Source: Bacteroidaceae bacterium | GTDB taxonomy: Bacteria > Bacteroidota > Bacteroidia > Bacteroidales > Bacteroidaceae | Length of the DNA stretch: 32,628 nucleotides | Direction of reading: 5' to 3' | NCBI GenBank assembly: GCA_017429945.1 | Contig: JAFRNY010000044.1 | Coordinates: 1-32,628 of the forward strand | In this document: in pieces, positions 1-24,143 of the stretch | Layout of the letters: each line of letters begins with the position of its first letter | Position numbering within the stretch: the stretch's first letter is position 1 | Translations under genes and position numbers: made by a program | Notes under the pieces: generated by a model | What the model was told of the DNA's origin: nothing | The model's database searches: none | Seen by the model: only the letters and a program-made list of their open reading frames with translations

Positions 1-66
1 AAAAATGAAAAGTGAAAAATGAAAAATTAAAAATGAAAAGTGAAAAATGGAGAATGGAGAATGAAA
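1..66. repeat. heptamer array (AAAAATG/AAAAGTG type)
   Basis: About nine back-to-back 7-base units of the form AAAAATG or AAAAGTG, with two GAGAATG variants at the end. The array begins at the window edge and stops 12 bases before the GH31 stop codon, so it occupies the 3' side of that gene. Units of the same kind recur near 11.38, 11.93, 15.61, 16.07 and 24.15 kb. No promoter or hairpin is visible here. Confidence 0.85.
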
Positions 67-78
67 CCTTTGAGGGTA

Positions 79-2997
79 TTAGGTTGTGAGGGATACTCGC
101 TTGGCTGTGCCGTCGTAGTCCACACTGACGGCACCGTCTTCATTGCCAAAGGGGCACGGATGGTCGGGGCTGACACGGACAATGCGGAAGGTGCGGCGCT
201 CGGGCATACCGGGGTACGTGCCTTGGCGGTCGCCGATGGTCAGGGTGGCCGAGGCCTCGTCCCAGGTAAGAGATATCAAAGAATAGGCGCCTTGCTCATA
301 AGCATAGGTCGTGCCGTCGTCGTCGTAGAGCGTGAAGCGACCGTCGCGACCGGCATAGACGTAGATGGTCAGCGGAGCATCGGGCTGCTCGGATGAATAT
401 TGGACATCGGGGCCGATAGGGAGTATGCTACCGGCCGGCACAAAGAGCGGAATGCGCTCATAGGGAGCGGCAATGGTTTGCCGGCCCGCCTCCGCGATGC
501 GACCTGAATAGAAATCATACCATTTACAATTTACGGATTTACCATTTACGATTTGCGGCAGATAGACACTACGGCTGCGGGCGCCATACTCATAGACAGG
601 GGCCACCATCAGCGAAGGCCCCAGCAGGAACTGGTCGCCGACATTGCGCGCGTCGGCGTCGGCCGTGAAGTCCATTACCAACGGACGCATCAGCGTATAG
701 TCGTCGTGCCAAGTCATGCCGGCCAACGAATAGAGGTAAGGCATCAGCCGGTAGCGCAGGCGCGTGTAGTAAACAATAGAGTTGTAGGCCGGCTCGCCTT
801 CGTGGCCAATATTCCATACTTCGCGGAACGGCCCCTGGCCATGCGCGCGGAAGAGCGGGCAGAAAGCGCCGAACTGATACCAGCGCGTCTGCAGTTCCTG
901 CCATTCGCGCCAGTCGTCGGTCACATGACCTTGGTTGTAGGCTGCCAAAGCTCCGTAGTAGCGGTTCTCGATGGTGAAACCTCCGATGTCCATGGTCCAG
1001 AAAGGTATGCCGCTGACCGAGAAATTCAGTCCGGCAGAGATCTGTGCCTTCATGTCCTCCCAGCGCGACGCGATGTCGCCGCTCCAGGTGGCCGTGGAAT
1101 AGCGCTGCAGACCGGCGAAGCCCGAGCGCGTGAGCAGGAACACGCGACGGTCGGGGTCGGCGCTGCGCTGTCCTTCGTAGATAGCACGGGCGTTCATCAA
1201 AGCATAGGTGTTGAAATACTGTGCCGACGGACCGAGGGCGGTGGGGCCACAGAGCGCCTTGCGATAGTCCATATCTGTGCAGTCGGTGACGTTGGGCTCG
1301 CTGGCATCCATCCACCAAGCGTCGATGCCGAGGGGATAGAGGTGGTCGTACATCTGCCCCCAGAAGAGCTTGCGGGCGCCGTTGCTATAGGCATCGTAGA
1401 ACGAGCCTACATAGCCGGGGCCTACCCAGTCGCGGATGCTGTCCTCGACGGCCTGACGGTACATCCAACCCCGCTCGTCGAACTCACGGAAATGTTCGGT
1501 ATTGGCATAGAACTTAGGCCATACGGAGATCATCAGGTGGGCGTTCTGGGCATGTACGCTGTCGACCATGGCCTTGGGGTCGGGGAAGCGGGTCTTGTCG
1601 AACTCATGGCTGCCCCATTGGTCCTCGGGCCAGTAGAACCAGTCGAGCACGATGTTGTCGATGGGAATCTGACGGGCACGGAACTCGCGGAGCGTAGCCA
1701 GCAACTCGTCCTGCGTCTTGTAGCGCTCGCGGCTCTGCCAGTAGCCCATGGCCCAGCGCGGCATCACAGGAGCCTTGCCCGTGAGCGTGCGGTAGCCGCT
1801 GACGACGTCGTCCATCGAGGGGCCACCGACGAAGTAGTAGTCAAGCTGGTCGTCCATCTCGCTCCACCACGACATTTGCTGCCGCTCATCGTCGGGCACG
1901 GGAGCCATGGCGCGAAGGCCGAAGAACGATTTGTCGCCGTCGGGAGCCCATTCCACACGCAGGTGGACGCGCTGCCCGGCCTTTAAGGCCTTCTCGAACT
2001 TCCAGCTATTAGGGTTCCAGGCCGCGCGCCAACGTTCGGGCACGACCAGCTCGTCATCGAGATAGACCTTGACATAGCCGGCATAATAGAGCAGGAAACG
2101 GTGGAGGCCGTCGGCCTTAGGTTCAAGGTCGCCTTCGTAGGTCACGGCACTGCCTCCGAAGCGGAAGTCCTGCGGCAGGTTGACCACCCGCTGCAGGTGG
2201 GCCTCGCGGTCGTTGCACTCAAAATAGAGCGAATCCTCACGCCGCACCAACGGCTCGCCCTCGGCAGGACGGTAAGTGCCCGTGAGGGCTCCCTCGCTTC
2301 CTTCGGCATCGGTCAGCCCGAAGACCTCGCCCAGCTGCACGTAAGGCTGCGGATTGCCGAAACGGCAGAGCGAATAGCTGTCCCAGAGCACACCATAGCC
2401 CTCAGTAGATACGATGAAAGGCACAGAGACTTTCGTGTTGTACTGAAAGAGTTCCTCACTGCGACCTTTATAGTTGAACTCGTAGGACTGATGCTGTCCC
2501 AGGCCATAGAGACCCTCATCGGCAGACGTAGATGCAAAGACTTGCTGAACGGTGTAAGCGCGCGTGCCCTCCACCTCGATGGGTTTGAACGTCCGGCCGT
2601 CCTCGGCCTCTGACAGCAACAGGCGCCCTGAGGCATCGGCGAAGCGGACGACGCCCGTCTGTCGGCTGACGGCCGCTGTAAGCGAGCTCGTGCGAACGAA
2701 GACGGAGTCCTCACGCTCTTCGACATCGAAGTCGGTCTTCGACGTCTGCGGCAGCACTACAAGACTCTCCTTGTCGGCAAAGCGGCGTTCCGGCGTTGCC
2801 GAGACGTGGATCAAGCGCTCACCCAGCACCTGAAGGCGCACCTGCCGCGCTGACGTTTCGGAGGCGGGAGTGAGGTGAACGACCACGCCGTCGGCCGTCT
2901 GCACTACGCCCTCACGGCTGCCGCATGACAGTTGCAGCAGCGAGCCCAGCAACGCCATTGCGATGCCAGATCGGTATATATTGCCATTCATTTTCAT
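79..2997 (-). CDS. GH31 alpha-xylosidase/alpha-glucosidase lipoprotein with PA14 insert
   Basis: Predicted retaining alpha-glycosidase that removes alpha-xylosyl (or alpha-glucosyl) residues from oligosaccharides. The 972 residues start with a lipoprotein-type signal ending LQLSC (Cys25). The GH31 N-terminal beta-sandwich is followed by a PA14-like insert (about residues 250-360). The (beta/alpha)8 barrel carries WWMDASEP with nucleophile Asp564, and WSGDIASRW with acid/base Asp641. Size and PA14 insert resemble the alpha-xylosidases of Bacteroidota xyloglucan loci, so alpha-xylosidase is the preferred reading; substrate is inferred. It is the last gene of the enzyme run, with only nine bases to the preceding esterase gene. 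Oddity: residues about 815-825, between VYLP and WYDF, are encoded by a heptamer repeat tract and lengthen a normally short loop. Confidence 0.93.
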   Translation of the reverse strand: MKMNGNIYRSGIAMALLGSLLQLSCGSREGVVQTADGVVVHLTPASETSARQVRLQVLGERLIHVSATPERRFADKESLVVLPQTSKTDFDVEEREDSVFVRTSSLTAAVSRQTGVVRFADASGRLLLSEAEDGRTFKPIEVEGTRAYTVQQVFASTSADEGLYGLGQHQSYEFNYKGRSEELFQYNTKVSVPFIVSTEGYGVLWDSYSLCRFGNPQPYVQLGEVFGLTDAEGSEGALTGTYRPAEGEPLVRREDSLYFECNDREAHLQRVVNLPQDFRFGGSAVTYEGDLEPKADGLHRFLLYYAGYVKVYLDDELVVPERWRAAWNPNSWKFEKALKAGQRVHLRVEWAPDGDKSFFGLRAMAPVPDDERQQMSWWSEMDDQLDYYFVGGPSMDDVVSGYRTLTGKAPVMPRWAMGYWQSRERYKTQDELLATLREFRARQIPIDNIVLDWFYWPEDQWGSHEFDKTRFPDPKAMVDSVHAQNAHLMISVWPKFYANTEHFREFDERGWMYRQAVEDSIRDWVGPGYVGSFYDAYSNGARKLFWGQMYDHLYPLGIDAWWMDASEPNVTDCTDMDYRKALCGPTALGPSAQYFNTYALMNARAIYEGQRSADPDRRVFLLTRSGFAGLQRYSTATWSGDIASRWEDMKAQISAGLNFSVSGIPFWTMDIGGFTIENRYYGALAAYNQGHVTDDWREWQELQTRWYQFGAFCPLFRAHGQGPFREVWNIGHEGEPAYNSIVYYTRLRYRLMPYLYSLAGMTWHDDYTLMRPLVMDFTADADARNVGDQFLLGPSLMVAPVYEYGARSRSVYLPQIVNGKSVNCKWYDFYSGRIAEAGRQTIAAPYERIPLFVPAGSILPIGPDVQYSSEQPDAPLTIYVYAGRDGRFTLYDDDGTTYAYEQGAYSLISLTWDEASATLTIGDRQGTYPGMPERRTFRIVRVSPDHPCPFGNEDGAVSVDYDGTAKRVSLTT
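520..555. repeat. in-frame heptamer repeat tract inside the GH31 gene
   Basis: On the coding (minus) strand the tract reads as four copies of NGTAAAT with one extra base. This matches the ATTTACG-type heptamers seen between genes near 17.13 and 24.08 kb. It encodes IVNGKSVNCK between the conserved VYLP and WYDF segments. Related GH31 proteins usually have only three to four residues there, so about 21 bases (three heptamers) appear to have been added without breaking the frame. Low-complexity ATTTAC units stand out sharply from the GC-rich coding sequence around them. Confidence 0.75.
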
Positions 2998-3006
2998 AGT
3001 CGTATC

Positions 3007-4317
3007 TTACTTCAGGTAGTTATCAATAAAAGCATCGCGCGGACGCAGGTATTTCTGTTCCCAGTACGGGCGAATAGTCCCCGAAGGCCAGGCATGAGTG
3101 CGGAAGGGTACGCAGTTGACGGTCTTCTTGCCCTTGGCACCATTGAGCGAAGCCCAGATGCTGGCGGGCGGACAGGTCGTGTCGATGAGTCCCATCTCGC
3201 AATAGATCTCTGCACGCGAATGGCGTATGAGGAGTGCGCCGTCGAAATAAGGAAGGGTGGCATCGAGCTGCTCGGCCGTGAGGAAGGGGTGGTTCTCGAT
3301 AGGCTGGGGCCAACCGCTGCGACGACCGGCACGGGCGCCGCCCAGGTCCTGCAGGGCTGGGACGTTCAGCACTACGGCCGAGACGCGCTCGTCAAGCCCG
3401 GCAGCCGCCACGGCCTGTCCGCCGCCCTGGCTCTCGCCAATGACTATGATACGTTTGCCGTCCCATTCGGGCTGCCGCGTCATATATTCTATGGCTCTCA
3501 GCAGTCTCAAGTACATCCCACGGAAGTAGTAGGTCTCGCGGTCGGCGGCGTTGTGCTCGAAATAGTTGCGCAGCATTCCGTTTTCGAGCATCGCGTAATA
3601 GCCGTCGGGCTGCCCGTTGAGCATGCCATGGGCATTGAGGTCGAGACTGAGGGCTCCGTTGCCCTTTGAGGCATTATTGACGCACTCCCATACAGAACAG
3701 CGGCACCAGTCGCCCTTGACCCCGGCCGCGCGACACAGAATGATGATAGGCAACGATTTCTTCTTGGCACCCACGGGCTTGGACACGTAGGCACGGACAG
3801 GCGCCGGCCCGAGACAGTTGATCTCGATGTCCTCGCAGCTGTATTTGCCCTGGAAATTCTGAGGCACGGTCAGCGCCGTCTTTTTCACCTGCATAGGCAA
3901 CGCCTTTAGCTGACGCTTCAGGTTGTCCCAGTAGGGCATGAGGTCATCGGGCTCGGCATAGCCTGCGCGGAAGCCTTCGGGGGCAACGACATATCCTATC
4001 GCCGCGCCGGGGTCCTGGCCGCAACGTACTTCTACGCTGACGGCGCAGGTGCTGTCGAGCGCCTGTTGCAAGACCGTGAAGTCTTGGGCGGAGGGCAAGA
4101 GGCTGTACTCGTGATGGAGCTGATTATTGTGAAAGATGCGCACGTGGATGGAGTCGTGAGGCTGCGCATCGGTGTGGCAGGTTACGACGGCGCGTTCTCC
4201 TGCAGCGTATACACCGCTCTCCTTGTCGATGTCAAGGCGAAGGTGCCGGGGCAGCTCCTGGGCCGGTGACGCTGCGGCGAGTGCCGGCAGAAGGAGCAGT
4301 AGGATTAGGCGTTTCAT
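3007..4317 (-). CDS. secreted CE7-like acetyl (xylan) esterase, alpha/beta hydrolase
   Basis: Predicted secreted esterase that would remove acetyl groups from hemicellulose so that the neighbouring glycosidases can act. The 436-residue protein has a signal peptide (cleavage near SPAQ, about residue 20), an N-terminal beta-sandwich-like region (about 25-115), and an alpha/beta-hydrolase domain. Likely triad: Ser296 in IGESQGGG, Asp379 in LIDTTCPP and His408 in RTHAW. GxSQGG and IDxxCPP are typical of the AXE1/CE7 family. The usual RGQ motif of CE7 is not obvious; NAHG occupies the comparable place, so this is a divergent member and a different ester could be the substrate. It sits between the GH3 (21-base gap) and GH31 (nine-base gap) genes, consistent with one transcript. 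Confidence 0.82.
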   Translation of the reverse strand: MKRLILLLLLPALAAASPAQELPRHLRLDIDKESGVYAAGERAVVTCHTDAQPHDSIHVRIFHNNQLHHEYSLLPSAQDFTVLQQALDSTCAVSVEVRCGQDPGAAIGYVVAPEGFRAGYAEPDDLMPYWDNLKRQLKALPMQVKKTALTVPQNFQGKYSCEDIEINCLGPAPVRAYVSKPVGAKKKSLPIIILCRAAGVKGDWCRCSVWECVNNASKGNGALSLDLNAHGMLNGQPDGYYAMLENGMLRNYFEHNAADRETYYFRGMYLRLLRAIEYMTRQPEWDGKRIIVIGESQGGGQAVAAAGLDERVSAVVLNVPALQDLGGARAGRRSGWPQPIENHPFLTAEQLDATLPYFDGALLIRHSRAEIYCEMGLIDTTCPPASIWASLNGAKGKKTVNCVPFRTHAWPSGTIRPYWEQKYLRPRDAFIDNYLK

Positions 4318-4338
4318 AGTCTATGATGGTGATTAAGG

Positions 4339-6690
4339 TTACTTGGCCTCAACCTTAACATTCTGCTTTTCGCTGAAGAGGACGAACTCGCCGGGCTCAA
4401 GCACCCACTCGCCGTCGAGGTTGACGAACGAGAGGTCGCGCGCAGCCAGTTTCAGCGTCACGGTCTTGCTCTCGCCGGGCTTCAGTTCCACTTTCTCGAA
4501 GGCACGCAGACGGCGGTTGTCGGGTGTGAGCGAAGCCACGAGGTCGCTGCTGTAGAGCAACACGCACTCCTTGGTGAGGCGGTCGCCGGTGTTGCGGACA
4601 TCGATGGTGACGGTGAGCGTGTCGTCGGCACTGAAGGTCGTCTTGTCCACTTTCATATTGCTATACTCGACGGTGGTATAGTGCAGGCCATGGCCGAACG
4701 GCCACTGGACGTCCATGACGGCGTCGTAGTTGTAGTTGCCGTCCATCTGGCCCATGTTCTCGCACGGTTTATAGTCGTAGGTCACGAGGGCACCGGTGTA
4801 CTTGGGATAGGTGAAAGGCATACGGCCCGTGAAATCTACGTCGCCGGCCAGCAGGCGTGCCAGCGCCGTGCCACCATAGTTGCTGGGCAGGAAGGTGTGA
4901 ACAACGGCCTGGCACAGCGGCTCCACATCGCGGATGATGCGTGGACGGCCTTCTGCCAGTACGAGCACGATGGGCTTGCCGGCCGCTGCCAGCGTGCGCA
5001 GCATCTCTTTCTGGTTGTCGCTCAGGTTGAGGTCGTTGATATTGCCGGGCGTCTCGCAGTAGGAGTTCTCGCCCACACAGGCCACGATGACATCGGCGGC
5101 ACGGGCGGCAGCGGCGAGCTGGCCCCAGTCGGCAGCACGCTCGTCGAGGTTGAAGTCCTTGGCATCCCAGCGCACGCCTTCGACGAAGCGCACGGCGGCC
5201 TCACCGAAGCGCTCCTTCAGCGCCTGCTGGAAGGTGGGATAGTCGCCCATCTGCGGCGCCAGTTCGTTGGTGCGGTCGCCCTGCCATGTGTAGGTCCAGC
5301 CGCCGTTCATGCCTCGCAGGTTGTCGGCATTGGGGCCGCAGACGAGCAGCCGCGTGCCTTCGGCCAACGGCAGCACGGCCTTGCCCTGCACGGAGTCGTT
5401 CTTCAGCAGCACCATGCACTCCTCGGCCATCTGCTCGGCCTCGCGTGCAAAGCCTTCGCCGGCGAAGTCGGGAAACTCTGTTGCCAACTGCTCAGGCGTC
5501 TTGTCCCAGGTCTGCTTGTCGAGCATGCCAAGGCGTACCTTCAGGCGAAGGATGCGCCGCACAGCATCGTCGATGCGCGCTTTCGAGACGCGCCCTTCAT
5601 CGACGAGCTCGCGCAGCAGGTCGCAGAACTCCACTTCGTAAGGCACCATTGACATATCTATGCCGGCGTTGATGGCCATGCAGATGGCATCTTTCTTGGT
5701 TGCTGCCACGCGGTCGCGCGTACATATATTATTTATGTCAGCCCAGTCGGTGACAATCATGCCGTCCCAGTTCAGTCCCTCCTTAAGCCATTCGGTGAGA
5801 TATTTGGCATTGGCATGGAAGGGCACGCCGTTGTTCACGCTCGAGTTGACCATCAGCGAGAGGGCGCCGGCCTGTATGGCCGCGCGGAACGGCTGGAAGT
5901 ATTTCTCGCGCATATCGCGATCCGTGACGCTGCTGGGCGTGCGGTCCTTGCCGCTGACGGGCACGCCGTAGGCCATATAGTGCTTAATGCAAGCAGCCAC
6001 GCGGTCGGCAGGGATATGGTTGGGGTCGTCGCCCTGATAGCCGAGCACGGCCTGACGCGCCATCTCACAGCTGAGATAGACGTCCTCGCCATAGCTCTCC
6101 CACATACGGCTCCACAGGGGCTGGCGCCCGAGGTCCATGACGGGGGAATACACCCACTGAATGAGGCTGGCACGGCTCTCGTAGGCAGCTATCTCGCTCA
6201 CACGCCGCGGGATGTTGCGGTTGAACGAGGCTGCCTGGCCCACCTCCTGCGGGAAGAGCGTCGCGCCCCAGGTGTAGGACGCGCCGTGGATCTGGTCGAC
6301 GCCATAGATCTGCGGCACCTCAGAGCAGGTCTCCATAGAGATTTGGTTGAGCCTACGGATAAGCGCGCTCCACACCTCGGGCCGCTGAGCCACGCCCTTG
6401 GGCACGTTCAGGATGCTGCCCACATGGTATTGCTCAAAGACCTTGCGCAGCGCCTCTTCGTTCAACGTGAACTCGGGTTTCTGGGTATCGGTTATTACGT
6501 CGATGGTGAGCTCACACATCTGCCCGATCTTCTCGTCGAGCGAGAGTTTGCCCAGTGCTTTCTCCACCTGTGCCTCCACGTCGGAATCGACGGGGATGGC
6601 GGGGTCGGCGGTGTTCTTGGTTCCACATGCGAGCATAGCTAGACTCATAGGTATAATCATTGCATTAAGTTTCCAGTTCATGACAATCAT
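4339..6690 (-). CDS. GH3 beta-glucosidase-type lipoprotein
   Basis: Predicted exo-acting beta-glucosidase (possibly beta-xylosidase) that trims cello- or gluco-oligosaccharides at the surface or in the periplasm. The 783 residues include a signal with Cys22 (MLAC), the GH3 N-terminal barrel with nucleophile Asp315 in GMIVTDWAD, the KHY motif near 236, the GH3 C-terminal alpha/beta domain with GEN-SYCE near 540-550 (probable acid/base region), and a fibronectin-III-like domain at about 690-783. The start may be the first Met or Met4 (MNWKL), since two ATGs lie nine bases apart; no strong Shine-Dalgarno separates them. The GH5 gene ends 21 bases upstream and the esterase begins 21 bases downstream, so operon membership is likely. 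Confidence 0.94.
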   Translation of the reverse strand: MIVMNWKLNAMIIPMSLAMLACGTKNTADPAIPVDSDVEAQVEKALGKLSLDEKIGQMCELTIDVITDTQKPEFTLNEEALRKVFEQYHVGSILNVPKGVAQRPEVWSALIRRLNQISMETCSEVPQIYGVDQIHGASYTWGATLFPQEVGQAASFNRNIPRRVSEIAAYESRASLIQWVYSPVMDLGRQPLWSRMWESYGEDVYLSCEMARQAVLGYQGDDPNHIPADRVAACIKHYMAYGVPVSGKDRTPSSVTDRDMREKYFQPFRAAIQAGALSLMVNSSVNNGVPFHANAKYLTEWLKEGLNWDGMIVTDWADINNICTRDRVAATKKDAICMAINAGIDMSMVPYEVEFCDLLRELVDEGRVSKARIDDAVRRILRLKVRLGMLDKQTWDKTPEQLATEFPDFAGEGFAREAEQMAEECMVLLKNDSVQGKAVLPLAEGTRLLVCGPNADNLRGMNGGWTYTWQGDRTNELAPQMGDYPTFQQALKERFGEAAVRFVEGVRWDAKDFNLDERAADWGQLAAAARAADVIVACVGENSYCETPGNINDLNLSDNQKEMLRTLAAAGKPIVLVLAEGRPRIIRDVEPLCQAVVHTFLPSNYGGTALARLLAGDVDFTGRMPFTYPKYTGALVTYDYKPCENMGQMDGNYNYDAVMDVQWPFGHGLHYTTVEYSNMKVDKTTFSADDTLTVTIDVRNTGDRLTKECVLLYSSDLVASLTPDNRRLRAFEKVELKPGESKTVTLKLAARDLSFVNLDGEWVLEPGEFVLFSEKQNVKVEAK

Positions 6691-6711
6691 GCTTTTAGGT
6701 TAGTTAGTTAT

Positions 6712-8070
6712 CTATTGAAAAAGGATTTTCTTTCCATTGACTATGCGCAGGCCTTTCTTCGGGGCTTTGTCCGGCAGGAGCTGACCTGAGATGGAGTAAG
6801 CCTTCGCCGATGATGAGGGCGCCGTAGCCTGGAGGTCCTCAACGCCGACGTAGCCGCCCTCGCCATAGTAGCCTTTCACCAAAGCCTCGAGCAGGTCGGG
6901 CTGGTTGAACTCGGGCACGGTGCGATGTTCGCCGTCGGAGAGGCCCATCCAGTAGAAGGTGCCGATGCCGGCGGCCTTGCACTGCTCTACAAAATAACGT
7001 GCGAAGTCGAGGTATGCAGAACGCCGTTTGTCGTAGTCGCTACCCTCCAACGAGCCCCACTCGCCGAAGATGACCGGCGCGCCCTTGGCCACGAGATAGC
7101 GCTTTAGGTCGCTGATGCAGGTGCGCAGCTCCGTCTTTACCCACGAGAGGTTGCTGATGTCGGGATAGGTGTGGACTTCGAAGATAAGGTGACCGCTGCC
7201 GGCCGGGTCGTTGGGCAGGCGCATCTGCTTCAGCGGGTCCTGCAGGTGTTCGTTCCAGTTGCCGTGGCCGTCGCAGGCGCCGTAGGTCGAGACGACGAGG
7301 TTGCGCTGCGCATTGTTGCCGCCGGTGGCGCGCACTGCATTGACAAAGCTCTGGGCGTAGGCGTTGATGGCGTTGTAGGCCGACGTGGCGATGGCGGCAT
7401 CGTAGCGTGCGGTGGTGCCGAAAGATGCGAAGCACCACGAGCGCGGCACATCGAGCATCTCGTTGTAGCCCTCGAAGAGCAAGTGCTCGTCGTAGTCGCG
7501 GAAGGTCTCTGCGATCTGTGTCCAGATGGCTTCGAAGCGCGTGTGCTGCTTGGCATAGACGTCCTCATCGGCGATGAGCCAGGCGGTGTTGGCCGCGCCC
7601 GTGTCGTGGTGGACGTTGAGTATGCAATACATATCTTGGCTGATGACGTAGTCCACGACTTCCTTTACGCGCGCCATCCAAGCGGCCTGAATCTTCGTGC
7701 CCAGGTCGTCCTTCCAGGGGTACCAGTAGCTGTTCTGGTAAGTGGCAAACTGGAACTTGGCCTCCATGTGCGGGTACCAGGTCACCGGCACGCGAATGGC
7801 ATTGAAGCCGGCTTTCTTGAACATCGCTATCACCTCCGGCGTGGCCACCTTCTGCCCCCAGGCCGTCTCATAGGCCGATGGCGAGCGGTCGGTCCAGTGT
7901 TCGATCCACATATTCAGCGTGTCGCCCGAGTTGCTGTCGAGCGTGTTGCCCAGGTTCCAGCCCAGGCGCATTTTGTCTACGGCCTCGCGTGCCGATTCGA
8001 AGGTTGCGGCCTGCGTCATCGTCACGATGCCCACCGAGGCCACTGCAAGTAAAAGGATTAGTCGTTTCAT
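6712..8070 (-). CDS. secreted GH5 endo-beta-glucanase (subfamily 4-like)
   Basis: Predicted endo-acting enzyme on beta-1,4-glucan backbones (xyloglucan, mixed-linkage glucan, glucomannan or cellulose). The 452 residues start with a signal peptide (to about AQAA, residue 22). GH5 motifs are complete: GWNLGNTLD near 37-45, AGFNAIRVPVTW near 87-98, NVHHD near 152, acid/base Glu204 in FEGYNEM, and nucleophile Glu337 in FGEWGS. The pattern around NVHHD and GYNEM suggests subfamily 4, where many xyloglucanases fall (inference). After the catalytic domain come about 45 residues ending in GLRIVNGKKILFQ, a tail like those of the GH26 and GH2 proteins here. It lies 45 bases downstream of the GH26 gene. 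Confidence 0.94.
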   Translation of the reverse strand: MKRLILLLAVASVGIVTMTQAATFESAREAVDKMRLGWNLGNTLDSNSGDTLNMWIEHWTDRSPSAYETAWGQKVATPEVIAMFKKAGFNAIRVPVTWYPHMEAKFQFATYQNSYWYPWKDDLGTKIQAAWMARVKEVVDYVISQDMYCILNVHHDTGAANTAWLIADEDVYAKQHTRFEAIWTQIAETFRDYDEHLLFEGYNEMLDVPRSWCFASFGTTARYDAAIATSAYNAINAYAQSFVNAVRATGGNNAQRNLVVSTYGACDGHGNWNEHLQDPLKQMRLPNDPAGSGHLIFEVHTYPDISNLSWVKTELRTCISDLKRYLVAKGAPVIFGEWGSLEGSDYDKRRSAYLDFARYFVEQCKAAGIGTFYWMGLSDGEHRTVPEFNQPDLLEALVKGYYGEGGYVGVEDLQATAPSSSAKAYSISGQLLPDKAPKKGLRIVNGKKILFQ

Positions 8071-8115
8071 TGTGCTTGTATGAGGTAAATGATTATGCTT
8101 GTACTAAGGTGTTGA

Positions 8116-9297
8116 TTATCGATGGAAGTATTTCTTTCCGTTGCGTATCACGATGCCGCGACGGCCTTCCTGCCACGGACGGCCCAGGAGGTCGTAGCTG
8201 CCTGCCGGACGAGTGACGCGGTCATCCCGCACGCTCTCCACGCCGGTCATCAGCTGCTTGAAGTCGTCGCGCGTGAGCACATAGTCCTGAGCGAAGGCAT
8301 CGGCCCACCATTCAGCGTTGGCATGGCCGTGCTCAGTGCTCTTGAAAGCTTCGCTGTTGACGTCTTTCGTCCTCTCGTAGTCGTACCATGGCATGAAGAA
8401 GAGCCACTTGCTCCGCGTGCGCCACTGTGCGCTTATCTTGGCAACATTACCGCATTCGGTCAGCGCCACCATCTTGTCGGGCGAATAGGTCTGCAGGAAC
8501 TTGAAGCATGAGTTGTAGATATTCGCAGCGCCAGTGTTGTTGTAAATATCTATGCCGACAATGTCCACGTACTCGTCGCCCGGGTACCAATTGTAGCCGT
8601 CGCTGTAGGGCTTGTTCCATGCAGCAGCCGAAGTCCACACCCAGATGAGATTGTCGAGGCCCATCTCCTGGAACCGGCGAAACATCACGCGCCACAGTTC
8701 CTTGCACGCCTCTGCGTCCATACCCCACCAGAACCACATTCCGCCAGCCTCATGCAGGGGACGCCATATCACAGGTATCTTGCGCATTTTCAGCATTTTC
8801 AGATAGGAACCGATAGTGTTGATGTCCTTCATCATGAGCTTATATTCGTCAGACTCCGGCTCGAAAATCTTGCGGACGTCAAAGCTTGTCTGCCCAGAGC
8901 CTTTTCCAGGGGTGCAGGTGTAGCTCTTGCCATCGTTGGTCGGCACATTCCAATGCCACATAGCGCCGACTATGCCTCCCTGCCGATGCCAGTTGAGGAC
9001 CTCGGTGACATCGGTATAATCAATCCAACTGCCTTTGGCCGAATATACATGATGTATGAAATCGAAACAGTTGATAGCCGGCCACTTGCCTGTGTGCTGA
9101 TACACCCATTTGGCCTCATTGATGTTCCAGTTTACGTTGGCCATAGTGCCCGAGAGCGTCTTCTCGCCCTCGATGGCCTTAAGGCATTTAAGCAGATTGG
9201 CCGCTTCGGCCGATAGTTGTCGTGTCTCTTGTGCTGATGTGCCGAGCGTGGCCGTCAGCGCCAACAGTATCACAAAAAATAGTCTTCTTAGTGTCAT
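8116..9297 (-). CDS. secreted GH26 endo-beta-1,4-mannanase
   Basis: Predicted endo-mannanase cutting the backbone of (galacto/gluco)mannan. The 393 residues have a signal peptide (cleavage near TSAQ, about residue 22) and a single GH26 domain. Catalytic residues fit the family: acid/base Glu183 in WRPLHEAGGMWFWWG and nucleophile Glu281 in ALTECGN. The region GAMWHWNVP near 111-119 is also typical. The last 35 residues (YDLLGR ... GIVIRNGKKYFHR) look like a short C-terminal sorting-type tail. It is the first gene of the enzyme run, with a -7 promoter element about 60 bases upstream, and the araC-type gene directly before it. Confidence 0.95.
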   Translation of the reverse strand: MTLRRLFFVILLALTATLGTSAQETRQLSAEAANLLKCLKAIEGEKTLSGTMANVNWNINEAKWVYQHTGKWPAINCFDFIHHVYSAKGSWIDYTDVTEVLNWHRQGGIVGAMWHWNVPTNDGKSYTCTPGKGSGQTSFDVRKIFEPESDEYKLMMKDINTIGSYLKMLKMRKIPVIWRPLHEAGGMWFWWGMDAEACKELWRVMFRRFQEMGLDNLIWVWTSAAAWNKPYSDGYNWYPGDEYVDIVGIDIYNNTGAANIYNSCFKFLQTYSPDKMVALTECGNVAKISAQWRTRSKWLFFMPWYDYERTKDVNSEAFKSTEHGHANAEWWADAFAQDYVLTRDDFKQLMTGVESVRDDRVTRPAGSYDLLGRPWQEGRRGIVIRNGKKYFHR

Positions 9298-9360
9298 TGT
9301 CTGATGATAAAAGTAAATGATTAGCTATGCTTTAACTCGCAATACAATACTTATGCGCTG

Positions 9361-9368
9361 CAAAGATA
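9361..9368 (-). promoter_or_regulatory. -7 promoter element for the glycoside hydrolase operon
   Basis: On the minus strand TATCTTTG matches the Bacteroidota -7 consensus TAnnTTTG, followed by GC as often seen, about 63 bases before the GH26 start. No TTTG -33 box is found 19-21 bases upstream, where the sequence is CGAACGCC-like. A weak -33 would fit a promoter that needs an activator such as the adjacent AraC protein (inference). Confidence 0.55.
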
Positions 9369-9420
9369 AGCGATAAGCGGCGTTCGCGACTGACACTTTT
9401 TTAACCGATGATAGCACTCT

Positions 9421-10311
9421 TCACACTATCACCTTCCTGCGCACGTAGTTCTCGCGGAATTCCGTCGGCGAACAGCCTTTGTACTTGCGGAACAGACGGT
9501 TGAAATTGGAGATGGTGTTGAAGCCGCAGTCATAGCAGACCTCAGCCACGGTTTGCTCGGAATCGACGAGCTTGCGAGAGGCTATGCCCAGACGGAACTC
9601 AATGAGATAGTCCGAGAAGGTGCGGCCCGTGCGCTGACGGAAGAAGCGCGAGAAAGCCACGGGAGTCATGCCTACCAGGTCGGCAAGCATCTCAAGGCGC
9701 ACATCCTCGCTGTAGTGGCGGGCGACATACTCTTGTACCTTAGCCACACGACGGCTCTCGCTATGGACCTCGACGCGCGCAAACGACGAGCTTGAAAGGG
9801 TGCGCGAGCCCTCGCTGACCGACAGCTCATACAATATCTCATATAACTCCAGCACGGCGCGGAAGCCCGTCTGGTGGTCGATGAGGGCGATAAGATTGTT
9901 ATAGACACGCATGATGGCGGGCAGCGAGAAAGCCAGACCGCAACGGGCGCGCTCCAGCATGCGACGGATGCTCTCGAACTGGTTGCGCTCAAGCAGAGCA
10001 TCTGGCAGGAGGTCGGCCTTGAACTGAATGGTGATCTCGCGGATGTCGGAACTCGTGCAGTCGCCCTGCTCCCATACGTGCTCCAGGCCGGGACTTGCAA
10101 TGAGCACCAGGTCGTAGTCGCCTATGACTTCGCTGCTGTCGCCCACCGTACGCCGTACGCCGGCGGCATTCTGGATGAAGTTGAGTTCGTACTCGGGATG
10201 ACAATGAATGGGATAGTCGAAGCTCGACTTTCGCCGGTCGGCAATATAGAAGCAGTCGCGCTCCGACAGGGGCGTGATCTCATGCATCACATTTGTTCGT
10301 ATCTCATTCAT
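9421..10311 (-). CDS. AraC-family transcriptional regulator
   Basis: Predicted cytoplasmic DNA-binding regulator of the adjacent polysaccharide enzymes. The 296 residues contain a cupin-like sensor region with HCHPEYEL (about 25-110), a helical linker, and an AraC double helix-turn-helix at about 190-290, including MTPVAFSRFFRQRTG and the family signature VCYDCGFNTISNFNRLFRKYKG. It lacks membrane or hybrid two-component domains, so it is a one-component sensor of a soluble ligand. The start is uncertain: the ATG at 10311 lies inside a TCATTCG heptamer array, and Met9 (10287, MHEITPL) is an alternative that would leave the array untranslated. The gap to the GH26 gene is 123 bases and contains that gene's promoter. 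Confidence 0.92.
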   Translation of the reverse strand: MNEIRTNVMHEITPLSERDCFYIADRRKSSFDYPIHCHPEYELNFIQNAAGVRRTVGDSSEVIGDYDLVLIASPGLEHVWEQGDCTSSDIREITIQFKADLLPDALLERNQFESIRRMLERARCGLAFSLPAIMRVYNNLIALIDHQTGFRAVLELYEILYELSVSEGSRTLSSSSFARVEVHSESRRVAKVQEYVARHYSEDVRLEMLADLVGMTPVAFSRFFRQRTGRTFSDYLIEFRLGIASRKLVDSEQTVAEVCYDCGFNTISNFNRLFRKYKGCSPTEFRENYVRRKVIV

Positions 10312-10375
10312 TCGTCATTTGTCATTCGTCATTCATCATTCGTCACTCGTCATTCGTCACTCGTCACTCGTCATT
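10305..10375. repeat. heptamer array (TCATTCG type)
   Basis: About ten 7-base units TCATTCG, TCATTTG and TCACTCG in direct succession. The array touches or overlaps the start codon of the AraC-type gene and therefore lies in its leader region. A second array of the same type and orientation follows at about 10521-10604. Confidence 0.88.
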
Positions 10376-10520: not shown

Positions 10521-10604
10521 ATCATTCGTCATTTGTCATTCATCATTCGTCACTCGTCATTTGTCATTCGTCACTCGTCATTTGTCATTCGTCACTCGTC
10601 ATTC
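10521..10604. repeat. heptamer array (TCATTCG type)
   Basis: About twelve 7-base units alternating TCATTCG, TCATTTG and TCACTCG. It lies directly 3' of the LpxH-like gene, whose stop codon is at 10614-10616. Same orientation as the array at 10305-10375. Confidence 0.9.
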
Positions 10605-11927: not shown

Positions 11928-11985
11928 TTTTTCACTTTTCACTGTTCACTTTTCACTGTTCACTTTTCACTGTTCACTTTTCATT
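11928..11985. repeat. heptamer array (TTTTCAC/TGTTCAC type)
   Basis: Eight perfect-phase 7-base units alternating TTTTCAC and TGTTCAC. The array is bordered on both sides by GCGCGCAGC (about 11916-11924 and 11987-11995), like a short direct repeat. It lies 3' of radC, whose stop codon is at 11998-12000. Confidence 0.9.
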
Positions 11986-16118: not shown

Positions 16119-17120
16119 AGCATCCATGGCCTGGCAGGCTGTGATGGCAATGAGGTAGTAGATATCATCGACGGAGCAGCCGCGGCTGAGGTCGTTGACG
16201 GGACGTGCTATGCCCTGGAGGATAGGACCTATGGCTATTGCACCGGCGAGACGCTGGACGAGTTTGTAGCTTATGTTGCCGACTTCGAGATTCGGATAGA
16301 CGAGGACGTTGGCGTGGCCTGCGATGGCGCTGCCGGGGGCTTTCTTCTCACCTACGCTGGGCACGAGGGCGGCGTCGGCCTGCAGTTCGCCGTCGACCTT
16401 GAGTTCAGGACAACGTTCCTTAGCCAAACGAGTGGCCTCCACGACCTTGTCCACCACTTCGTGCTTGGCAGAGCCCTTGGTGGAGAAGCTGAGCATGGCA
16501 ACGCGCGGGTCGTCGAAGCCAGCAACGCTCTTAGCGGTCTGAGCCGTGCAGATGGCAATCTGCGAGAGCTGGTCAGCATCGGGCATGGGCGTCACGGCCA
16601 CATCACCTACGACGAGAACGCCATCCTCGCCGTACTCAGGACGGTCGGTGATGAGGAGCATAGCGCCGCTGACGCAGGTAATACCCGGGGAGCACTTGAT
16701 GATCTGGAGTGCGGGGCGCAACGTCTCACCCGTGGTGGAGAGAGCACCGGAGATCTGTCCGTCGGCACCTTCGGTCTTGATGATCATACAACCGAGGTAG
16801 AGCGGGTTCTTTACGAGCTCGCGGGCCTGTTCGATGGTCATGCCCTTGCTCTTGCGGAGTTCGCAGAGGAGCTGTGCGAGTTCCTCCGAGCGCTCGTAGT
16901 TCTCGGGGTCGATGAGCGTAGCCTCGCCGATGTGTGTGAGACCATGCTTCTCTGCCAGAGCGTGTACTTTGGCAGGATTACCGATAAGGATGATGTCGGC
17001 CAGGTGGTCGGCCAAGGCCTTGTCGGCCGCGATGAGCGTGCGCTCTTCCTCGGCCTCGGGGAGCACTATGCGCTGCGGATTGGCTTGCGCACGTGCGATG
17101 ATTTTTTCAATCAATGACAT
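16113..17120 (-). CDS. pta: phosphate acetyltransferase
   Basis: Converts acetyl-CoA and phosphate to acetyl phosphate, which AckA then uses to make ATP. The 335-residue protein is the short, single-domain PTA form without the N-terminal DRTGG/BioD-like part found in enterobacteria. Seen: RIVLPEAEEERTL (8-32 region), GALSTTGETLRPALQII near the middle, SFSTKGSAKHEVVDKV and DGELQADAALVP, with VYPNLEVGNISYKLVQRL near the C-terminus, all family signatures. The start MSLIEKI is preceded by a short ATTTACG-type repeat instead of a clear ribosome-binding site. The GH2 gene ends 27 bases upstream, so some read-through from it is possible. Confidence 0.95.
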   Translation of the reverse strand: MSLIEKIIARAQANPQRIVLPEAEEERTLIAADKALADHLADIILIGNPAKVHALAEKHGLTHIGEATLIDPENYERSEELAQLLCELRKSKGMTIEQARELVKNPLYLGCMIIKTEGADGQISGALSTTGETLRPALQIIKCSPGITCVSGAMLLITDRPEYGEDGVLVVGDVAVTPMPDADQLSQIAICTAQTAKSVAGFDDPRVAMLSFSTKGSAKHEVVDKVVEATRLAKERCPELKVDGELQADAALVPSVGEKKAPGSAIAGHANVLVYPNLEVGNISYKLVQRLAGAIAIGPILQGIARPVNDLSRGCSVDDIYYLIAITACQAMDAR

Positions 17121-17125
17121 CTTTG

Positions 17126-17156
17126 TGATTTACGATTTAATAATTTATTATTTGAT
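17126..17156. repeat. short heptamer-like tract (ATTTACG type)
   Basis: Three to four degenerate 7-base units (ATTTACG, ATTTAAT, ATTTATT) fill the gap between the GH2 stop and pta start. Same type as the tract inside the GH31 gene. Confidence 0.55.
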
Positions 17157-22920: not shown

Positions 22921-24033
22921 TTACTTTGCGATAGCGATAGAAACGCGGTTCTTGTCGTTCTCGGCGAAAGGCTGAACGGTGTCGCCCTTGCTGTCAACAG
23001 TGATGCGAGCGGCGTCGATGCCAGCCTCGGTGAGAGCCTTGGCAACGTTCTCAGCACGCTTCGAAGCATACATCTGGTTGATCTTCGGGTTACCTGTGCC
23101 GGCATCAGCATAGCTGGTGACGCTGACCTTCGTGTCGGGGTTAGCCTTCAGGAAGGCGATGAGGTTCTGCAGCTTGGCAGCTTCGGTGCCGACAGCAACA
23201 GTCTCGCGGATAGCGTAGAAGATCTCGGTGCGCATCTCGGGCTTCTTAACGGGCTCGGGCTTAACAACGGGCTTCGGCTCCTCAACAACGGGAGCGGGCT
23301 CCTCAACGACGGGTGCGGGGATGACGGTGCGCTTAACGGTGGGACCGAGAGCTACACGTACACCGAGCAGAGCGTTGAAGTACCAGTCGGCCTTCATCTT
23401 CTTCTCTGCCTTCTTCGAGTTGTACTTGTCGGAGAGGACATTGGCGTTACCTTCGAGGGTGATAGCTACGCGGTCGGAGCAGCGGAAGTCGAAGTCAAGA
23501 CCGGCGCGGCCTACGGGGCGAACCTTGGTGCCGTCCCAGAGGTACTCGAGCTCGTGGGTGTAGCCGTTGGGATCGAACACAGGGGGCTGGCTGGCAATAA
23601 CAGCCTGCAGGTCCTGAGCCTCGTCGTTGTTCCAAGCGATGTTAGCAGCACCGCCCAGGATAAGACCTACGTTGAGGAAGCGCTTGGGCTTCCAACCGCC
23701 AATGAGGTTCGTCAGGCTAACCTTCAGGTCGAGACCTGCGCTGGCGTAGTTCCACTTGTAGTCTGCCTTGGGGTGGCTTACCCAACCGCCCTTAGACTCC
23801 CAGCCGCTGCCCTGCAGACGCAGGCCGAGGACGGGGTTGAACTGATAGCCTACTGCAACCTGTGCGGCAGGTGAGAGGAGGTCCTTGAACTTAGCCTCGC
23901 CCAGAGTGTGGGCGCCGCCGGCCTGCAGCTGCAGGAACCAGTGGGGCTGGAACTCTTCGATTACCTGGTCCTGAGCGGAAGCCGTGGTAAATGCAGCAAA
24001 GAACATTGCTGCCAAAAACATAAACTTTTTCAT
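22921..24033 (-). CDS. OmpA-family outer membrane protein
   Basis: Predicted outer membrane porin that ties the membrane to peptidoglycan. The 370 residues contain a signal peptide (cleavage after TASA, about residue 20), an N-terminal beta-barrel (about 25-225, alternating pattern with many aromatic ends such as HWFLQLQAGG and WYFNALLGVRVAL), a Pro/Val/Glu-rich linker (about 235-268, PAPVVEEPAPVVEEPKP), and a C-terminal OmpA domain (about 275-370). In the latter SYADAGTGNPKIN and ASKRAENVAKAL carry the Asp and Arg positions that bind diaminopimelate in the family. Codons are strongly biased toward those of highly expressed genes, as in the giant lipoprotein at the right edge. A strong terminator follows. 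Confidence 0.94.
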   Translation of the reverse strand: MKKFMFLAAMFFAAFTTASAQDQVIEEFQPHWFLQLQAGGAHTLGEAKFKDLLSPAAQVAVGYQFNPVLGLRLQGSGWESKGGWVSHPKADYKWNYASAGLDLKVSLTNLIGGWKPKRFLNVGLILGGAANIAWNNDEAQDLQAVIASQPPVFDPNGYTHELEYLWDGTKVRPVGRAGLDFDFRCSDRVAITLEGNANVLSDKYNSKKAEKKMKADWYFNALLGVRVALGPTVKRTVIPAPVVEEPAPVVEEPKPVVKPEPVKKPEMRTEIFYAIRETVAVGTEAAKLQNLIAFLKANPDTKVSVTSYADAGTGNPKINQMYASKRAENVAKALTEAGIDAARITVDSKGDTVQPFAENDKNRVSIAIAK

Positions 24034-24143
24034 TTTCGTTTTGTTTTTAATAAAGGGTTAATACTGATTTTTTTCGTTTAATGATTTACGGTTTACTAAT
24101 TACTCCTTACTTTCTGTCTCGTATGATATATATTGGTGAATTA

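Follow-up and report, generated by a model that had tools for sequence, protein, structure and literature searches.

Results

A loop of a GH31 alpha-xylosidase is written in heptad repeat DNA

An 11-residue loop (QIVNGKSVNCK) of a GH31 alpha-xylosidase gene product is coded, codon for codon, by DNA of a GTAAAT heptad repeat. The gene lies in a stretch of 32,628 nucleotides (nt), contig JAFRNY010000044.1, which we call the window; it belongs to a metagenome-assembled Bacteroidaceae genome (GCA_017429945.1; 2.96 Mb in 92 contigs, 82% complete). We consider it likely, at roughly three chances in four, that the loop is a captured copy of a dispersed, AT-rich GTAAATN heptad array that was written into a tolerant loop and then filtered for reading frame.

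The tract, on the minus strand, consists of four exact GTAAAT cores and one degenerate core (GCAAAT), followed by the G of a Trp codon (Table 1). The 33 nt of loop codons between VYLP and WYDF are 73% A+T, against 39% for the coding sequence. When GTAAATNGTAAAT was searched with at most one mismatch, the window gave five matches, where shuffles led us to expect 0.01; three fall in the tract (two of them overlapping each other) and two lie between genes. The tract is therefore far beyond chance. An initial annotation, made by reading the window alone, had described a heptamer repeat inside this gene and the same type of repeat between genes, and both descriptions hold. It had also read a 10-residue IVNGKSVNCK from uniform 7-nt units; the position between VYLP and WYDF and the repeat type were right, whereas the loop has 11 residues with the omitted Q and one of its units is 8 nt long.

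The host gene has an intact reading frame. All four GH31 domains scored above the Pfam cut-off and in the expected order (PF13802, N-terminal; PF01055, barrel; PF21365, C-terminal; PF17137, DUF5110). The best match in the PDB, and thus the closest solved relative, was 5jou (1391.6 bits), the BoGH31A xyloglucan alpha-xylosidase of Bacteroides ovatus; the NCBIfam alpha-xylosidase model PRK10658 gave 208 bits, against a cut-off of 606. The catalytic nucleophile motif WMDASEPN and GDI..RWEDM are kept in the alignments with 5jou and with the orthologues; the nucleophile Asp of BoGH31 is named in PMC4967831. Compared pairwise with the closest relative (L061), the rates of nonsynonymous (dN) and synonymous (dS) change were 0.109 and 0.94 upstream of the loop (ratio about 0.12) and 0.198 and 1.11 downstream of it (about 0.18), so the gene is under constraint, as a pairwise measure taken over both lineages. 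The protein is probably an active enzyme.

The long loop is absent from orthologues

GH31 genes were searched in 139 genomes of the genus, one per species, and 129 of these gave some match (here and below, L numbers denote loci and G numbers genomes of the genus). A loop could be read in 23 congeneric orthologues, 54-83% identical to the window protein: it has four residues in 19 and three in the other four. The full alignment covers 11 of the 23, none with a long loop. BoGH31 has four residues (QAEG, approximately chain residues 806-809 as counted along the alignment) opposite the 11 of the window protein, leaving a gap of seven. The initial annotation took three to four residues to be usual in GH31 proteins, as they are in these 23 orthologues, and proposed that the interpretation would fall if most close homologues shared the long loop; 0 of 23 do, and neither does BoGH31. 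As judged by these alignments, the 11-residue loop is new in the lineage of the window genome.

The net gain is 21 nt relative to the four-residue loops and 24 nt relative to the three-residue loops. The proposal that about seven residues, or 21 bases, had been added is thus correct as a net figure. It does not stand as an insertion of three heptamers, since the whole loop is heptad DNA and the old loop codons seem to have been overwritten as well; if the ancestor had a four-codon loop, 12 nt would have been replaced by 33. The five closest orthologues (L061, L002, L003, L062 and L004) show nothing in their loops that resembles a GTAAAT seed.

In BoGH31 the C-terminal proximal beta-sandwich spans residues 759-839 and the barrel 384-758, and the sugar-contacting residues named in PMC4967831 lie in the barrel. 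By homology, the loop site would fall in the proximal beta-sandwich, outside the catalytic barrel. Among 13 more distant GH31 loci (L018-L030), the flanking motif found the loop in six; four have four residues, L029 has 12 and L025 has 13. The homology to BoGH31 and the long loops of some paralogues suggest that the site is exposed and tolerant of length.

Two GH31 genes elsewhere in the genus deserve mention. The 13-residue loop of L025, a paralogue in G058 (around position 2788), is coded by five heptads, each ending in GGC. This unit is rare in G058 (four matches, two of them the loop itself; control 0), and with so few matches we do not claim it as a dispersed repeat. In the GH31 gene of G043 (L003, 3952-4035) the next loop, after WYDFYTG, is longer by about 22 residues, which are encoded by DNA containing the palindrome CTCGGCGG-TTTTC-CCGCCGAG. 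A search of G043 with this stretch gave 39 matches at E <=1; one is the stretch itself, 33 fall on its palindromic part and five elsewhere in it. As read from these matches, it is a second type of dispersed repeat that has entered this gene family in frame.

The tract is open in its stop-bearing orientation

A pure (GTAAATN)4 array read forward contains a stop codon in 768 of 768 frames; the other strand contains one in 0 of 768. The GH31 tract lies in the forward, stop-bearing orientation. It is open because CAA replaces TAA in the first unit and because the 8-nt unit skips the next TAA position. A pure TAAATTG array translates as IVNCKL-stop, which is the source of the VNCK peptide picked out in the initial annotation. 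Across 13 GTAAAT-type arrays, the GH31 tract included, and with spacings of up to 9 nt allowed, 30 of 40 spacings are 7 nt and 10 are 8 nt; an 8-nt spacing is thus not rare in the family, and the 8-nt unit need not postdate the insertion. The earlier argument that a 7-nt repeat enters a gene harmlessly in multiples of three is sound as a rule of length. It is incomplete, since pure forward arrays carry a stop in every frame. The rule has a direct illustration in miaB, described below.

Heptad arrays are dispersed through the genome

The GTAAAT family is not confined to the window. Three units (GTAAATNGTAAATNGTAAAT), searched with at most two mismatches, gave 40 partly overlapping matches in the genome to which the window belongs; the reversed control gave 16. 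Thirty loci were fetched and resolved into 19 distinct sites, among them the GH31 tract. At ten of the 19 the array lies in the sense orientation shortly before the ATG of an open reading frame (ORF): L032, L036, L037, L038, L043, L046, L051, L052, L058 and L060. At L032, L036, L037 and L051 the array starts at, or a few bases from, the stop codon of the preceding gene. Such heptads could act as AT-rich leaders for translation start.

Tandem arrays were counted in a sample of 424,628 bases (20 stretches, L098-L117, plus the window), with genes called by a simple codon model. There were 51 arrays of period 7, of which 34 are intergenic, 14 overlap a gene end and three lie inside genes. Every other period from 4 to 15 gave between 0 and 4 arrays, the exceptions being 14 arrays of period 8 and 34 of the multiple, period 14. 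Period-7 arrays are thus the commonest tandem repeats of the sample, and most are intergenic. The period-8 arrays, none of which overlaps a period-7 array, form a second class after 7 and its multiple. For families a slightly lower threshold was used, giving 62 arrays, with a run of 210 N in L113 counted as one; they contain 118 distinct heptads, and a few families dominate. Four arrays inside genes were scored in this way; the main units of three of them occur in 2, 3 and 8 arrays of the sample, the scored array itself counted.

Table 1. Coordinates of the GH31 gene, its heptad tract and other heptad arrays in the window
Feature	Position	Strand	Basis
GH31 alpha-xylosidase gene, BoGH31 type, 972 amino acids, intact frame	79..2997	-	ORF, Pfam, PDB match, dN/dS
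Heptad tract GCAAATC GTAAATG GTAAATCC GTAAATT GTAAATG, unit lengths 7, 7, 8, 7, 7 (read from 556 to 521)	521..556	-	sequence
Loop codons CAA ATC GTA AAT GGT AAA TCC GTA AAT TGT AAA = QIVNGKSVNCK	523..555	-	
GTAAAT-type heptads, intergenic, forward, just upstream of the ORF beginning at 17120	17128..17140	-	
GTAAAT-type heptads, intergenic, about 50 bases upstream of the ORF beginning at 24033	24084..24096	-	
Intergenic heptad array, AAAAATG/AAAAGTG family, period 7, 9.4 copies	1..66	.	
Heptad array, TCATTCG family; first bases in a called gene, the rest between genes	10308..10375	.	
Intergenic heptad array, TCATTCG family	10522..10604	.	
Intergenic heptad array, TTTTCAC family	11929..11983	.	

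In the neighbourhood of the GH31 gene (3007-10311), translations read by eye resemble an esterase, a GH3, a GH5-like and a GH26-like enzyme and an AraC regulator. Together with the GH31 gene they are perhaps a plant-polysaccharide gene cluster. A scan of genome contigs gave six relatives, of which four (L149, L150, L152 and L153) look like the records of L006, L007, L003 and L002 and so add no independent evidence. The named relatives are metagenome-assembled genomes of Bacteroidaceae or Bacteroidales, with sources that include goat omasum and reindeer; those with RUG names presumably come from the rumen.

Translated arrays recur in other genes of the same genome

Within the sample and the sites met through GTAAAT matches, five further genes contain translated arrays, making six with GH31. 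One is miaB, where CAATTCA units code for the loop in LLGQNVNSY-QFTIHNSQSII-KFPD; three units of this type have 23 matches in the genome, two of them in miaB itself, against 0 for the control. Another array codes for the linker ESSKFKVQSSKS, which precedes a C-terminal domain that we take to be a secretion-sorting domain; among six proteins of the sample with this type of C-terminus, one has a heptad linker. Further heptad linkers are QLSTLSSQLSTLNY and FITQPSALCPLH. Finally, outside the sample, a protein that we would label GH16-like carries the linker QITNDKLQITNDKLQIMNDESQIVNSKS, in which QIVNSKS is read in the same phase as QIVNGKS of the GH31 loop. Of the ten relatives shown, eight have a shorter linker at this place and two (L282 and L286) have one of about the same length.

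Heptad arrays recur in the MiaB loop across the genus

A MiaB match at E <=1e-120 was present in 118 of the 139 genomes. We took 120 places, 118 of which have the motif LLGQNVNSY before the loop. The loop ranges from 6 to 31 residues and is most often nine (38 loci). Among the 70 loops of at least 12 residues, a self-match of at least 0.45 at lag 7 occurred in 13, where codon shuffles predicted 0.22. Lag 14 gave 7 against 0.68 expected and lag 12 gave 2 against 1.16; lags 4, 5, 6, 10, 11 and 13 gave 0. (An automatic PAL label, attached to 16 MiaB loops, mixed heptad loops with true palindromes, labelling L147, L157 and L160 as PAL, and was not used for any count.)

To place these loops, a MiaB tree was built without the loop, and heptad loops were picked by hand into a strict set of 11 (the 13 lag-7 loops minus L136 and L200) and a wide set of 17. 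They are scattered over the tree: the strict set needs 11 changes for 11 loops (shuffled mean 10.7) and the wide set 16 for 17 (16.3). Either turnover is fast or the events are many. L157 and L171, at a distance of 0.077, differ by exactly 21 nt, three heptads, within the array, the direct case of the multiples-of-three principle. L124 (QWTMDNGQWTI, coded by pure CAATGGA) and L146 (nine residues, no array) are 0.022 apart. Three CAATGGA units have 62 overlapping matches in G134, the genome of L124, and 8 in G136, its array-less neighbour with L146; both reversed controls gave 0.

In 7mjv and other MiaB structures, presumably of the B. uniformis type, the alignment puts a 14-residue loop, RFEKPDGETITFPM, at the same place. 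A repeat can therefore fill a naturally variable MiaB loop without any net insertion. Other repeats also occur here: the MiaB loops L189, L197, L229 and L119 contain stem-loops of the form CTCCCCC..GGGGGAG, in L119 beside heptads. Tolerant loops, more than heptads as such, seem to collect intergenic repeats.

Discussion

How the loop may have arisen

The results presented above are consistent with a model in which a GTAAATN array was written between VYLP and WYDF, overwriting a short ancestral loop and leaving a loop 21 nt longer than the four-codon form. Another heptad array would most likely have served as the source, copied ectopically by template switching or short-homology recombination while the DNA was being replicated or repaired. 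Units of 7 nt could afterwards have been gained or lost by slippage, with selection retaining in-frame outcomes. On this model the insertion would owe its survival to the position of the loop outside the catalytic barrel, at a site that is long in some paralogues as well, to a net length that preserved the frame and to the lack of an in-frame TAA in this copy. The initial annotation had called the tract a protein-level trace of a spreading repeat; its absence from all 23 orthologues, the translated arrays in other genes of the genome and the MiaB loops across the genus all support that description.

Several observations weigh against capture by copying. No source array was identified for the GH31 tract, and the array allele is known from one genome, with no array-free allele seen in its species, so that the event cannot be placed more recently than about 17% protein divergence allows. 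Part of the AT-rich signal is background: five AAAT heptads, searched with at most three mismatches, gave 383 matches against 231 for the reversed control, showing that AT-richness alone produces many. In MiaB the excess of self-matches is not limited to lag 7, since lag 8 gave 7 (0.34 expected) and lag 9 gave 5 (1.00 expected). G098 has a degenerate MiaB loop of the CAATGGA type, yet no threefold CAATGGA match occurs in its genome. Finally, alignment of the L099 linker with five relatives showed lengths that differ among them and no clear net gain in L099 itself, and the main unit of its array (AGAGGGC class) is in no other array of the sample. Local slippage suits L099 better. Length is variable in any case both at the L099 position and in MiaB, so a repeat-filled loop there is not always a net insertion.

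Alternative explanations

The main competitor is slippage in situ: the polymerase would have extended a short seed already present in the gene, 7 nt at a time, and nothing would have been copied from elsewhere. Heptanucleotides dominate the long simple repeats of bacteria, and a polymerase effect at 7 nt has been put forward (Mrazek et al, 2007, cited in PMC4679880). The three-unit difference between L157 and L171 likewise amounts to gain or loss of units inside a gene, and the private unit of the L099 array is what growth from a local seed would give. However, the units of the GH31 tract are those of a genome-wide family and the five closest orthologues contain no seed; three of the four scored in-gene arrays share their main units with others (2, 3 and 8 arrays, itself counted), and the unit of the MiaB array in G134 has 62 matches in that genome. 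We therefore regard slippage as the sole origin of the GH31 loop as unlikely, though a serious candidate.

A phase-variable switch, in which the tract would turn the xylosidase frame on and off, is improbable. Each 7-nt copy gained or lost would indeed shift the frame, and a pure array read forward meets a stop in every frame. Against this, slow slippage is to be expected of a tract that is short, imperfect and interrupted by an 8-nt unit; the gene has an unbroken frame and a low pairwise dN/dS; the tract is absent from all 23 orthologues with a readable loop; and the product is a sugar hydrolase, no classical surface antigen. An artefact of assembly or binning is still less probable: the genome is split into 92 contigs at 82% completeness, and repeats can disturb assembly, but the frame is kept on both sides, the flanks align unbroken, the same phenomenon appears in many other assemblies and the tract, at 36 nt, is shorter than an ordinary read. 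That the heptad likeness is an accident of an ordinary lengthened loop is the least credible of all, for although two of the six readable paralogous loops (L025, 13 residues; L029, 12) show that the site tolerates length otherwise, five matches were found where 0.01 was expected, the loop is 73% A+T in a 39% A+T gene, and the long loop of L025 is itself heptad-like.

We return, then, to the captured array. A bolder extension of it is that heptad arrays are an actively copying, non-palindromic class of repeat, with no known enzyme or inverted ends, that writes arrays into ORFs, and that exposed MiaB and GH31 loops trap successive arrays and other dispersed repeats such as G-rich palindromes, each replacing the one before, so that intergenic repeats continuously rewrite part of the protein surface. 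We put this forward as speculative; on balance we would lean against it.

Spreading repeats appear to write new pieces of protein. Here intergenic tandem repeats become coding sequence in conserved enzymes, with array-free relatives at hand for comparison, and in miaB, a single widespread gene, one can count how often a repeat-coded loop is gained, lost or replaced (118 loops). Two questions become testable: how short tandem arrays reach new sites without a known enzyme, and what share of new protein loops comes from repeats as against point mutation and small duplications. A caution also follows for annotation, in that heptapeptide-like linkers in such bacteria (QIVNSKS, QWTMDNG, SKFKVQS) can be repeat DNA and need have no function.

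Comparison with known systems

The initial annotation compared the tract in principle with the palindromic elements of Rickettsia (Ogata, Claverie and colleagues), and the comparison is apt: in both, a dispersed repeat occurs between genes and in frame within conserved protein genes, and in the GH31 case it is absent from 23 of 23 orthologues. The review PMC2229807 describes Rickettsia insertions in 19 reading frames, and a guanylate kinase that remained active with changed substrate affinity. In that source the elements are palindromes of 105-146 bp, whereas the GH31 tract is a tandem heptad array of 33-36 nt with no palindrome, and thus far from the 100-150 bp palindrome of that class. Moreover, the GH31 tract seems to overwrite the old loop, and the heptad unit differs from gene to gene. 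The tract therefore works like an insertion of the Rickettsia type, yet it is not a Rickettsia palindromic element.

MacGregor (2015; PMC4679880) described TAACTGA direct repeats in marine Beggiatoaceae and in some Cyanobacteria and Bacteroidetes; among the matches listed from open-licence papers, this was the only report on heptads in Bacteroidales or Prevotella. These too are 7-nt tandem units, mostly forward and just before start codons, with stops in the three forward frames and some copies in ORFs. The GTAAAT arrays share the tandem 7-nt form and the forward placement before starts (10 of 19 sites); the unit is different, GTAAATN in the window, with many families per genome. Apart from one exception, the ORF cases in that source are mostly arrays over stop codons, in short hypothetical proteins or at the ends of proteins, whereas arrays in the genus of the window occupy internal loops of conserved enzymes and that of GH31 does so in the stop-bearing orientation. 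More generally, heptamers are a dominant long tandem unit in bacteria, mainly between genes (Mrazek et al, 2007, via PMC4679880; Rehm et al, 2015, PMC4692102), and the available parts of these sources describe no heptads as protein loops in conserved enzymes. The matches listed from open-licence papers likewise included no report of repeated heptad capture in such loops. Heptads and in-gene repeats are thus both known in bacteria; their repeated capture into the loops of conserved enzymes appears to be new.

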